Assembly: GCF_014191375.1 (NCBI RefSeq)
Contig: NZ_JACHWN010000005.1
Coordinates: forward strand, 248,001 to 312,000
DNA: 64,000 bases
Direction: 5' to 3'
From: Mesorhizobium sp. RMAD-H1
GTDB lineage: Bacteria; Pseudomonadota; Alphaproteobacteria; Rhizobiales; Rhizobiaceae
Shown here: positions 30,887-58,189 of the stretch, one piece after another
Layout of the letters: every line of letters starts with the position of its first letter
How positions within the stretch are numbered: the first letter of the stretch is position 1
Notes under the pieces: model-generated
The model's database searches: none
What the model saw: only the letters and a program-made list of their open reading frames with translations
Told to the model about the DNA's origin: nothing
Position numbers and translations under genes: made by a program

Positions 30887-30908
30887 CCAACGGATTCCTG
30901 TATCCATC

Positions 30909-30966
30909 GGCCTTTTTAGCGAGTTGTTTTACGTGGCTGCAAGCCGGCCGGCCAAATCACCACAAC
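30909..30966 (-). promoter_or_regulatory. SAM-II riboswitch (metA leader)
   Basis: Read on the minus strand the region shows the conserved SAM-II core: P1 5' strand GTGGT, then GATTTGGCC, the invariant CTTGCAGCCAC (P1 3' strand CCAC), GTAAAACAA, and the 3' pseudoknot strand GCTAAAAAGGCC. The SAM-II class occurs mainly in alphaproteobacteria upstream of methionine genes and shuts them off when S-adenosylmethionine is abundant. A possible promoter lies just upstream on the same strand (TTGACG at 31003-30998). Confidence 0.9.
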
Positions 30967-31109
30967 TACGAGTGCTTTTAAGCCCCCCAACCCTTTGCGT
31001 CAATGGAGTTGATGGGATAAAGGAGGCGGCTCTGAATTTTGTTTCCACACAAGTCCGGATAGAAAACCGCCTGGCACTTTTCCTGGACTTGCTCTGTTAG
31101 GACCACCCG

Positions 31110-42582: not shown

Positions 42583-43848
42583 TCAGAGCCATTCAGGCAC
42601 GGAATCGAGGCCGATCAGCTCGTCATAGCCCGTACGTGGGCGGACGACATGGTAACGGTCGCCATCGACCAGCACTTCCGGCACCAGCAGCCGGGTGTTG
42701 TAGGTGCCGGACTGGACCGCGCCATAGGCTCCCGCCGTCATCACCGCGAGAAGATCGCCCGGCGCCGGATATGGCAGGTCGCGGTCAAGGCCGAGATAAT
42801 CGCCCGTCTCGCAGACCGGGCCGACGATATCGGCGCGGATGCGGCGCTGGCCGTCCTTCGGTGCGATAACCGGGCGGATATCGTGGAATGCGTCATAGAG
42901 CGTCGGGCGGATCAGATCGTTCATCGCCGCGTCGACGACGATGAAATTCTTGGCGTCGCCCTCCTTCACGAAGACGACTTCGCAAACCAGGATACCGGCA
43001 TTGCCGACGATCAGCCGGCCGGGCTCGAAGATCGTCTTCAGGCCGAGCGGGCGGATATGTTTTCGCACGATGGCGGCGTAAGCGTCGGGCAGGGGCGGCG
43101 GGTTGTTGTCGGTGCGATAAGGAATTCCCAGGCCGCCGCCCAGATCGATATGCTCGATCGCGTGCCCGTCCGCCTTCAATTGCGCGACCAGTTCGGCAAG
43201 CAGTGCGAATGCATCGTCGAAGGGCTGCAATTCCGTTATCTGGCTGCCGATATGCATGTCGATGCCGGTGACATGCAGGCCCGGCAGGCTTGCCGCCCTG
43301 GCGTAGACGGCGCGCGCCTTCTGATAGGGGATGCCGAACTTGTTCTCGGCCTTGCCGGTAGAAATCTTGGCGTGGGTGCGCGCGTCCACATCCGGGTTGA
43401 TGCGCAGAGAAACCGGCGCGGTCCTGCCGGCCGCCACGGCGCGGGCGGAGAGGAGCTCCAGTTCCGGCTCGGATTCGACGTTGAAGCAGCGTATGCCGGC
43501 GGCGAGCGCGAAATCCATCTCGCCTGCCTTCTTGCCGACGCCGGAGAAGACGATCTTGTCCGCCGGGATGCCGGCTGCGAGCGCGCGGCGCAATTCGCCT
43601 TCAGAGACCACATCGGCGCCGGAACCGAGCTTTGCCAGCGTCTTCAGAACGGCCTGGTTGGAATTGGCCTTCAGCGCATAGCAGACCAGCGCGTCCATAT
43701 CGGCGAAGGCTTCCGAAAAGACGCGGAAATGGCGCGCCAGCGTGGCTGTGGAATAGCAATAGAACGGTGTGCCGACCGCGCGCGCGATATCGGCGACGCT
43801 GACATTCTCGGCGTGCAGGACGCCGTTCCGATAATCGAAATGGTTCAA
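42583..43848 (-). CDS. lysA: Diaminopimelate decarboxylase
   Basis: 421-residue fold-type III PLP enzyme, last step of lysine synthesis (meso-DAP to lysine). PLP lysine in CYALKANSNQAVL, HIGSQITEL, GGGLGIPY and the C-terminal GPVCETGDYLG carrying the catalytic Cys. The start that matches the family N-terminus (NHFDYRNGVLHAEN) is a TTG codon at 43848; there is no in-frame ATG nearby. Directly downstream of lptM. Confidence 0.96.
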   Translation of the reverse strand: MNHFDYRNGVLHAENVSVADIARAVGTPFYCYSTATLARHFRVFSEAFADMDALVCYALKANSNQAVLKTLAKLGSGADVVSEGELRRALAAGIPADKIVFSGVGKKAGEMDFALAAGIRCFNVESEPELELLSARAVAAGRTAPVSLRINPDVDARTHAKISTGKAENKFGIPYQKARAVYARAASLPGLHVTGIDMHIGSQITELQPFDDAFALLAELVAQLKADGHAIEHIDLGGGLGIPYRTDNNPPPLPDAYAAIVRKHIRPLGLKTIFEPGRLIVGNAGILVCEVVFVKEGDAKNFIVVDAAMNDLIRPTLYDAFHDIRPVIAPKDGQRRIRADIVGPVCETGDYLGLDRDLPYPAPGDLLAVMTAGAYGAVQSGTYNTRLLVPEVLVDGDRYHVVRPRTGYDELIGLDSVPEWL

Positions 43849-43888
43849 GGTCTTGGTGCTCTTATGGCGCAGCCGGTCGGCGGCGCGG

Positions 43889-44074
43889 CTACTGGATCAG
43901 CTTGTCGAGAATGAAAGGCTTGTCCTCGACCGGTTTCGGCTGGGTCCGGCCGTTTTCGTCGGTGACGACGGATGCGGGCGGCGGCTCGAGATCACCGCGC
44001 CGGCCGCAGGCCGAAAGTGCGCTGCCGAGGACAGCGGCCAGGAGAAGGGTCGAGATGAAGGAACGGCTGGTCAT
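43889..44074 (-). CDS. lptM: Small lipoprotein LptM (YifL-like)
   Basis: 61-residue lipoprotein: signal peptide with lipobox LSAC, then the short mature sequence CGRRGDLEPPPAS, matching the CGxxGxL start of LptM/YifL, which assists maturation of the LptD-LptE outer-membrane translocon. Position immediately upstream of lysA is conserved in many proteobacteria, including E. coli yifL-dapF-type contexts. Stop is 41 bp from the lysA start. Confidence 0.88.
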   Translation of the reverse strand: MTSRSFISTLLLAAVLGSALSACGRRGDLEPPPASVVTDENGRTQPKPVEDKPFILDKLIQ

Positions 44075-44094
44075 GCGGTTGGTCCTGAACCCGA

Positions 44095-44236
44095 GGGTGC
44101 GTTGATATTCAGGTGAGGGCGTGCTGCAAATGGTGCTTTTCGGCGCTTCCGGTGCTCATGTACTGAAAGTACACTCCGCTCCGGTTCTCGAAAACCGCCA
44201 TTTTCGCCTCACCCCCACCAGAATCTCAGCGCACCC
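44095..44236. repeat. 142-bp imperfect palindrome (RIME-like intergenic element)
   Basis: The two halves are near reverse complements around a centre at TGTACTGAAAGTACA (44159-44173). Outer arms GGGTGCG (44095-44101) and CGCACCC (44230-44236) match, then ...ATTC-GGTG-GGG..., AAATGG-G-TTTTCG and CCGG-GC segments follow in order in both arms. It fills the gap between argH and lptM. Size and symmetry resemble dispersed rhizobial palindromic elements. Only one copy was seen in this window. Confidence 0.75.
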
Positions 44237-44280
44237 TAACGAAAGAGCGTGCGCATTGCACCCCGCTTCTCCCGACATTT

Positions 44281-45681
44281 TCACGTCTTGGCGATGCGCT
44301 TCTTCCAATACCGGATCTGGCGGCGCACCTGCTCGGGCGCGGTGCCCCCATAGGATTTGCGGCTGCGCACCGATTTGTCCACTGTGAGAAAGCCGAAAAC
44401 AGCCTCGGTGATGCCGGGATGGATCGATTGCAACTCTTCGAGCGAGAGCTTGGCGAGATCGCATTTCCTGCTTTCCGCAAGCGCCACGGCGCGCCCCGTG
44501 ACATGATGCGCCTCGCGGAACGGCATGCCGAGCTCCCGCACAAGCCAGTCGGCGAGATCGGTGGCGGTGGAATAGCCCGAGCCGGCGGCCTTTTTCATCG
44601 CGGCCGTATTGACGGTCAGGTCGCTGACCATGCCGGCCATGGCGGCGAGGGCCAGTTCCAGGGTTTCGGCGGCGTCGAAGACGGCTTCCTTGTCCTCCTG
44701 CATGTCCTTGGAATAGGAGAGCGGCAGGCCTTTCATGACGGTGAGCAGGCCGACGAGCGAGCCGGTGATGCGACCGGTCTTGGCGCGGACGAGTTCCGCC
44801 GCATCCGGGTTCTTCTTCTGCGGCATGATCGAGGAGCCGGTGGAGAAGGCGTCGGAAAGCCGGATGAAGTTGAACTGTGGCGTCGACCAGATGACGATCT
44901 CCTCGGCAAGGCGCGAGAGATGCGTGGCGCAGATGGCGGCGATGGAGAGGAATTCCAGCGCGAAATCGCGGTCGGAGACGCTGTCGAGCGAGTTGCGCGT
45001 CGGCTCGCGGAAGCCCAGCTCCTTGGCTGTCATATGCCGGTCGATGGGGAAGCCGGTGCCGGCAAGGGCGGCGGCGCCGAGGGGCGATTCGTCGAGGCGC
45101 TCGATGGCGTCGCGGACACGGGAGAGGTCGCGCCCGAACATTTCGACATAAGCCATGCAATGATGGCCGAAGGTGACGGGCTGCGCCGTCTGGAGATGGG
45201 TAAAGCCGGGCATGACGGTCGCCGCATGCTCCTCGGCGCGCTCGAGAAAGGCCTCGATCAGCTTTTTCAGGGCCGTGGCCGTCTTGTTCAGCTCGTCCTT
45301 GACCCAAAGGCGGAAATCCAGCGCCACCTGGTCGTTGCGCGAGCGGGCGGTGTGCAGCCGTCCGGCGGCCGGGCCGATCAGCTCGGCCAGCCGCGCCTCG
45401 ATGTTCATGTGGATGTCTTCGAGCTTGCGCGAGAAGGTGAATTTGCCGCTCTCGATCTCTGACAATATCGTGTTCAGGCCCGCGATTATCTTGTCGCGGT
45501 CCTCCGCCGCAATTATGCCGGTCTTGGCAAGCATGGCGACATGGGCGAGCGATCCCCGGATGTCCTGGGCGTAAAGCTTCTGGTCGAAGCCGATCGAGGC
45601 GTTGATCTCTTCCATGATCGCGTCGGGACCGGAGGCGAAACGCCCGCCCCACATTTCATTGCTGGACTTTTGTTCGGTCAT
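44281..45681 (-). CDS. argH: Argininosuccinate lyase
   Basis: 466-residue member of the fumarase/aspartase superfamily, splitting argininosuccinate into arginine and fumarate. Signature [34 protein letters not shown] (catalytic His/Thr), [11 protein letters not shown] at the N-terminus. Divergent from tlpA. Head of the minus-strand argH-lptM-lysA-TIGR02302 series, though the palindrome at 44095-44236 lies between argH and lptM. Confidence 0.97.
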
Positions 45682-55858: not shown

Positions 55859-55934
<76 letters not shown>

Positions 55935-58038: not shown

Positions 58039-58121
58039 GGACACATCCTTTCGTTTGGCGCCCTGATAACGGGTTTCATGACGCGGCGCAACAAAAACGA
58101 AACGGGCTGAAAGTGTGAGAA

Positions 58122-58189
58122 AAGGCAGCAGGGAATAGGGAGCAAGCAACAGGTTTTCCTATTCCCCACTCCTTATTCCCTACTGCCTT
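58122..58189. repeat. 68-bp inverted repeat with GGGAATA units
   Basis: AAGGCAGCAGGGAATAGGGAG (58122-58142) and the arm ending CTGCCTT (58183-58189) are 21-bp inverted repeats with two mismatches. The loop contains a further GGGAATAGG copy on the minus strand (CCTATTCCCC). It abuts the GNAT stop codon, so it may act as its terminator, and looks like a dispersed intergenic element. Confidence 0.65.

Follow-up and report, generated by a model that had tools for sequence, protein, structure and literature searches.

A hairpin element between argH and lptM

The window analysed here, the whole stretch of 64,000 nucleotides from Mesorhizobium sp. RMAD-H1, contains a 142-bp palindrome at 44095-44236, in the gap between argH (44281-45681) and lptM (43889-44074), with lysA (42583-43848) on the far side of lptM. 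All three genes lie on the minus strand and each matched its own Pfam family, in agreement with the neighbours named in the initial annotation, and the position of the palindrome, its GGGTGCG and CGCACCC ends and its centre were likewise as first stated. The palindrome proved to be one copy of a family whose orientation corresponds to the window plus strand, so that this copy is antisense to argH, lptM and lysA; the argH stop lies 44 bp and the lptM start 20 bp away. It can be divided into a left end of ~20 bp that resembles an IS5-family terminal repeat (44095-44114, plus strand; 16/20 positions alike, including the base before), a core with conserved internal loops and an invariant CCGG/GC stem (44115-44216, plus strand; defined from a 49-copy alignment, A2), and a right end of ~20 bp of the same kind (44217-44236, minus strand; 15/20, including the base after).

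Without gaps, 40 of the 71 symmetric positions were complementary, compared with a mean of 17.9 and a maximum of 33 in 5000 shuffles. No other 142-bp stretch of the 64-kb window scored as high, the runner-up being 38 at 58085. The two halves had been described as almost reverse complements, which is apt as a ranking within the window and generous as a description, since internal loops are present and are conserved in the family. A repeat search with exact seeds of default length reported nothing at 44095-44236, in our reading because mismatches break the exact seeds. The predicted RNA fold of 44080-44250 had an energy of -75.9 kcal/mol on the plus strand (z -6.31) and -79.8 kcal/mol on the minus strand (z -5.91), far better than shuffled sequences, of which 0/200 were as good on either strand. 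A transcript coming from argH would carry the more stable strand of the hairpin, whose end lies 8 bases ahead of an AGGA in the lptM leader. It had also been proposed that a hairpin after argH might terminate, process or insulate the transcript. The hairpin is there, but the pattern scan for an intrinsic terminator across 43860-44360 returned only 43937-43952, outside the element, and no stem with a T-run inside it. Rfam gave no family at the gathering threshold on the hairpin, where only sub-threshold microRNA models matched. A hairpin in the argH-lptM transcript might conceivably alter the decay or translation of lptM-lysA, which is a guess.

Occupied and empty sites

A very stable hairpin that folds on both strands in an intercistronic gap could be a functional cis-acting RNA belonging to argH-lptM-lysA, whether as terminator, processing site or leader. 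Among 30 argH loci from relatives and the own genome, the hairpin core was found only at the own-genome locus; we therefore dropped a regulatory RNA peculiar to argH-lptM, and conservation as part of an argH leader does not describe the element. These empty orthologous sites contradict an ancestral role in argH-lptM-lysA and leave only a recently acquired one. With copies standing beside unrelated genes, and with the Rfam and terminator results given above, we regard a cis-acting role of this kind as very improbable.

The sequence of the argH-lptM gap was compared at 22 of the argH loci. The motif GGTGCA-N15/16-CGCTA was found with at most one mismatch at 13 of the 22; in the window it follows argH on the minus strand (44237-44262). 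We consider it a putative lptM promoter or leader element; a sigma-70 scan predicted no promoter there. In five other gaps of the same genus the order is GGTGCAAT-N-CGCTA (GGCTA in one), then ~20 bp or more, then GGTTCAGGACC and lptM, while in the window it is CTCTTTCGTTA, hairpin, TCGGGTTCAGGACC. This comparison indicates that the element entered at a TA and that ~20 bp of the lptM leader are gone. The TA on the argH side (44237-44238) is formed by the final two bases of the conserved CGCTA, which reads CGTTA in the window; on the lptM side the minus strand has TC where TA is expected. The copy would thus have entered the TA of the conserved CGCTA upstream of lptM in the orientation that is rarer in the family, with the loss of leader sequence. 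With its antisense orientation, its position upstream of lptM and its missing ~20 bp of leader, the window copy is an exception within the family.

Orthologous places were examined for twelve further copies in the genus, using 57 aligned stretches of the 60 fetched; stretches that aligned poorly or held other repeats were left out (e.g. L167, L173, L186, L192, L197, L200, L204). The cleanest empty site was L029, upstream of purD, where TAA stands at both element ends and a single TAA is found in two empty orthologues. Four sites were occupied in a second species: the TPP site in G002 and the own genome (G000); L038 by a copy in G004 and a tip-deleted relic in G000; L017 by a copy in G004 and a half relic in G002; and L033 by a TA-type copy in G002 and another sub-type in G001, with a different repeat in G003 and nearly nothing in G004 and G005. 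At L018, L033, L034, L038 and L044 the gene stops at the same codon as in element-free orthologues; at L020 the upstream reading frame is cut short by the hairpin copy.

At the TPP site the family includes a copy inside the P3 arm of a TPP riboswitch (487-718 of L202, the own-genome locus G000 C8:184840-185709, and L043 of G002). Carrying a 133-nt insertion, the motif still scored above threshold in the own genome (60.6 bits, threshold 54.3) and only 35.6 bits in G002. Copy-free orthologues scored 74.7 (L203) and 72.5 bits (L206), and L205 gave no match. In the same genus, the gaps L046, L173, L186, L197, L200 and L204 hold other repeat families where a sister species has the hairpin, and these gaps look as if different hairpin repeats refill gene ends. 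Shortened copies (L104, L111, L121, L005/L006, L209) that have lost the tip of the hairpin or a portion of one arm resemble leftovers of slippage at a palindrome.

A dispersed family in alphaproteobacteria

The palindrome is not single-copy. Its own genome holds the family at five places, where one palindromic place was matched twice and ten more matches had E above 1, and hairpin copies were found in 16 of the 61 genomes searched, including all six of the genus. The exact core pattern, searched in one genome per species, occurred in at least 119 stretches. Among the 80 stretches listed, 40 were titled Mesorhizobium, and the other carriers included Rhizobium, Agrobacterium, Phyllobacterium, Brucella/Ochrobactrum, Devosia, Stappia, Roseiarcaceae, Sphingomonadales and Asticcacaulis. 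A plasmid collection added 28 records with the hairpin, 12 of them Sphingobium. In eleven genomes we obtained 16, 11, 28, 16, 40, 32, 19, 41, 36, 28 and 2 matches, counts in which palindromic places can appear twice and which are lower bounds in three genomes, where no more than 40 candidates were scored; they include 16 in B. grignonensis, 11 in B. pseudintermedia, 32 in an Asticcacaulis (G066) and at least 41 in G068. The hairpin is thus a dispersed family across many alphaproteobacteria of several orders. Judged by titles and abstracts, none of the papers listed in literature searches describes it, the core strings occurring only in one unrelated paper, and the main text of a review of prokaryotic MITEs (PMC10969869) is without the terms Brucella, rhizob, Alphaproteobacteria, Bru-RS and stop codon.

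Compensatory changes and conservation of the core

We aligned 49 copies chosen as full-length (A2). Of 39 predicted pairs, 22 had changed on both sides, and 95.3% of the cells were able to pair. The alignment contained 170 double changes, compared with 43.9 +- 7.8 in shuffles and 17-28 in slid structures. The CCGG/GC stem and many of the surrounding internal-loop residues were invariant or nearly so. The minus-strand RNA was the more stable one in 49/49 copies; most tandem copies nevertheless put the less stable strand into the transcript. Mismatches in the paired columns comprised 48 A.C and 22 G.T.

Copies within one genome, selected with a loose match to the core and compared ungapped, were most alike in the centre. 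In G066 (18 copies) the centre was 99.6% alike, the inner arms 94-95%, the outermost positions 39-54% and the flanks 26-31%; the corresponding values were 100, 82-84, 52-71 and 27-29% in G068 (19 copies), and 98, 56-73, 39-40 and 28% in G021 (10 copies). A single recent burst would have left the ends alike as well and so does not account for this gradient, nor does a symmetric MITE by itself explain why similarity is higher in the core. We dropped the idea of one common core per genome, since the TA and TNA types in G021 have distinguishable cores.

A core that is far more alike than the ends (0.996 vs 0.39-0.54 in G066) and has invariant internal-loop residues could also mean that recognition by the mover lies in the core hairpin, in the manner of REP-like single-strand transposition, with the ends only passively paired. 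This we judge improbable, because direct duplications of TA and TNA occur above chance and the ends resemble IS5 terminal repeats, as set out below, and because a Y1_Tnp gene is missing from the own genome and from 6 of 10 genomes tested (4/10 have one). A REP/RAYT element was likewise rejected on the absence of a Y1_Tnp (RAYT) gene from G000.

Ends and their IS5-family counterparts

The family has two main kinds of ends, (TA)GGGTGYGTTGAGATTCAGG and (TNA)GAGNCTGTTTNGAAA, with many variants. The first kind is shared with IS5-family elements of ~820 bp, namely L447 of Brucella grignonensis and copies on named plasmids; ten plasmid elements were fetched, and 8/10 had both ends of this kind while L496 and L498 had it at one end only. 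The right end of the IS reads TA|AGGC(C/T)TGTTGAGATTCAGG in Agrobacterium, Phyllobacterium and Mesorhizobium INR15; Sphingobium TomTYG65 has TA|AGGCTTGTGGGGATTTAGG. A GTGGGGATT variant is common to the Sphingobium IS and to hairpins of Sphingobium (L248) and Sphingosinicella (L329). The second kind of end was found on a 951-bp IS5 element of Mesorhizobium AR07, which has (TAA)GAGCCTGACTCGAAACTCGG. We label these IS5-family terminal repeats IS427-like. Identity to IS5-family repeats reached 18/20 in the well-kept copies L018 and L404 and 15-16/20 in the window copy, compared with means of 7.5-8 and maxima of 13-16 for shuffled ends (2000 each); for L248 the observed score of 16 equalled the best shuffle. 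End pairs could be read at 5/30 and ~2/24 of the IS5 loci scanned, so only a minority of the loci inform the comparison; of the five readable among the 30, two (L467, L468) have other ends.

Direct repeats at the element ends were counted in 228 copies, among which orthologous copies were entered separately. TNA was repeated in 27, against 10.4 +- 2.8 (maximum 19 in 300) with shuffled flanks, and TA in 52, against 34.7 +- 3.6 (maximum 45). A perfect duplication was absent from most of the copies, and the window copy itself has TA on one side and TC on the other, with ~20 bp missing.

Searches for a transposase-bearing partner closer to home returned nothing. In the own genome, a draft assembly of 21 contigs that could miss a repeat such as an IS, neither an IS5-type PF13340 gene nor a match to the IS was found, and PF13340 was also missing from G066 and G068 despite their many hairpin matches. 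A pattern search of eight genomes found no IS with exact GGGTGTGTTGA ends; those GGGTGTGTTGA matches at 0-1 mismatch that were examined were hairpin copies, shortened copies or a half copy, and matches at 2 mismatches were scanned for an inverted partner only. With GAGNCTGTTTNGAAA, in twelve genomes, pairs occurred only at hairpin length (30/51 places scanned). MITEs usually share a genome with an autonomous partner, but this is not required, since the partner can be lost.

Taken with the copies in the own genome and in relatives and the empty orthologous sites, the IS5-like ends and above-chance target duplications uphold the proposal in the initial annotation of a MITE-like dispersed element; its interpretation as a whole is partly supported. 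We conclude that the palindrome is probably one copy of a non-autonomous hairpin element that combines a conserved core with ~20-bp ends of the kind used by IS5-family transposases. It behaves like, and most likely is, a MITE of IS5-family elements, an assignment qualified by the failure to find a partner in its own genome. It would have been moved by a transposase acting in trans.

One-way placement on stop codons

Bacteria often carry short palindromic repeats, and what places them is rarely known. We examined gene context with a coding-score ORF caller, setting the element edges at fixed distances from the core. Flanks were long enough in 209 copies, of which 5 lay within an ORF, 22 had no neighbour and 182 could be placed. 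With the element read in its plus orientation, the left and right neighbours were on strands ++ in 69, +- in 71, -- in 21 and -+ in 21. In the 140 cases with a left gene running toward the element, the stop was at -3 to +1 of the left end in 91 and no more than 15 bp away in 132; in the 92 cases with a right gene doing so, the corresponding counts at the right end were 12 and 36. The difference between the sides was highly significant (Fisher 9e-16 for -3 to +1, 1e-20 within 15 bp). Start codons abutted the element in only 4/111 cases. As a rule, then, the left end of a copy falls on the stop codon of a same-strand gene. On the reading as an IS5-type MITE, insertion at a stop codon, which contains the TA and TNA targets, would restore the stop and leave the protein whole, and some additional property of gene 3' ends or of the core would fix the orientation.

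The same skew was seen in subsets of the data. Left versus right stops at the element numbered 35/52 vs 6/36 in named species among the listed core-pattern matches, 32/54 vs 3/34 in the genus and other loci, 14/16 vs 1/12 in G068 and 4/5 vs 0/3 in G021; Asticcacaulis showed no skew (6/13 vs 2/5), and the own genome offered no left-gene case. With annotated plasmid genes (14 copies, some mutually orthologous), left stops fell at -3 to 0 in 9/10 and right stops at the element in 2/9. The orientation bias in tandem contexts (69 vs 21) was not seen in this small annotated set (4 vs 3). At two Shinella loci the element exactly fills the gap between convergent stops. Early stops are present at both element ends, so any error introduced by the ORF caller would be expected on the two sides alike. 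All of ten left genes sampled from 32 matched at least one Pfam family, and two GreA and one GAPDH gene were matched to the end of their NCBIfam profiles; these look like natural gene ends.

Two explanations of this placement have to be weighed. Insertion may be unaimed, with sense copies on stop codons being kept as 3'-UTR elements that protect the 3' end, offer an RNase III site or help termination. The strong covariation and the invariance of the internal loops resemble what selection for structure would produce, the copies stand at natural gene ends, and 71/182 lie between convergent genes, all of which makes such retention plausible, short of probable. If unaimed insertion were followed by retention, then a scattered neutral background should surround the retained copies. 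That background is missing on one side only: just 5 of the 140 sense copies lie beyond +10, yet 42 of the 182 have no gene entering from the left. Such scarcity of sense copies away from stops is hard to get from selection alone. Antisense copies, too, seldom abut a stop (2/21 in the -- class), and the sense RNA is the less stable strand in 49/49 copies, neither of which favours retention for the sake of the RNA.

The other explanation is that the stops of translated genes are targets for insertion in one fixed orientation, similar cores having been fitted with at least two transposase-specific kinds of ends, one duplicating TA and the other TNA. We advance this tentatively and hold it doubtful. 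A symmetric MITE gives no polarity by itself. The machinery could sense the gene 3' end, for example through a terminating ribosome, the transcript or an R-loop. If true, aimed insertion would let an element spread at gene ends while sparing the proteins. The combination of a likely mover, empty sites, compensatory pairing and one-way stop placement makes the choice between aimed and kept copies testable by a transposition assay.

Comparison with known repeats

Insertion sequences of the IS427 type of the IS5 family (NCBIfam NF033580, transpos_IS5_3) share with the hairpin TA|RGG-YTGTTGAGATTCAGG terminal repeats and a TA duplication. Brucella IS711, a studied example of this type, is described as duplicating TA at YTAR (PMC2266754, PMC3163539). 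The hairpin differs in being 142 bp long and without transposase, in having a conserved core that is absent from the IS ends, and in its one-way placement on stop codons. Bru-RS1 and Bru-RS2 are described as intergenic palindromes of Brucella, 103-106 bp long, into which IS711 inserts (PMC2267715, PMC10800456, PMC3163539, PMC2266754). The same genus carries the hairpin family, and the hairpin core without its two ends measures ~102 bp, whereas the full element has 142 bp against the 103-106 bp given in descriptions, which are the basis of this comparison. By size, host and the IS711 link, Bru-RS1 and Bru-RS2 are probably kin of the hairpin family.

ERIC elements insert at TA, and we know of no placement of theirs on stop codons. 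ERIC or RU-1 repeats of enterobacteria, 127 bp long, are described as intergenic, transcribed, palindromic and MITE-like (PMC2759123). They differ from the hairpin in sequence and in hosts. REP and BIME sequences, which depend on RAYT transposases, are likewise palindromes with conserved mismatches at gene 3' ends. REPs are reported to have 20-40 bp and GTAG or CGTC tags (PMC3733652), unlike the 142-bp hairpin, in whose own genome the Y1_Tnp gene is lacking. Stop-codon placement, taken alone, suggests a likeness to another class of site. The attC site of integrons is an imperfect palindrome that lies right after a stop codon in fixed orientation. The hairpin differs from it in occurring as single insertions by unrelated genes, with empty sites in relatives. 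RIME consists of two palindromes in 108 bp. These intergenic palindromic repeats of Rhizobiaceae (PMC2245857) are here set beside the hairpin from their descriptions.

Elsewhere in the window, a second palindrome at 58119-58189 has 32-nt arms that are 78% complementary and belongs by sequence to a different family. An ordinary SAM_alpha riboswitch (30895-30973) and an ordinary tRNA (55862-55934) lie on the minus strand.
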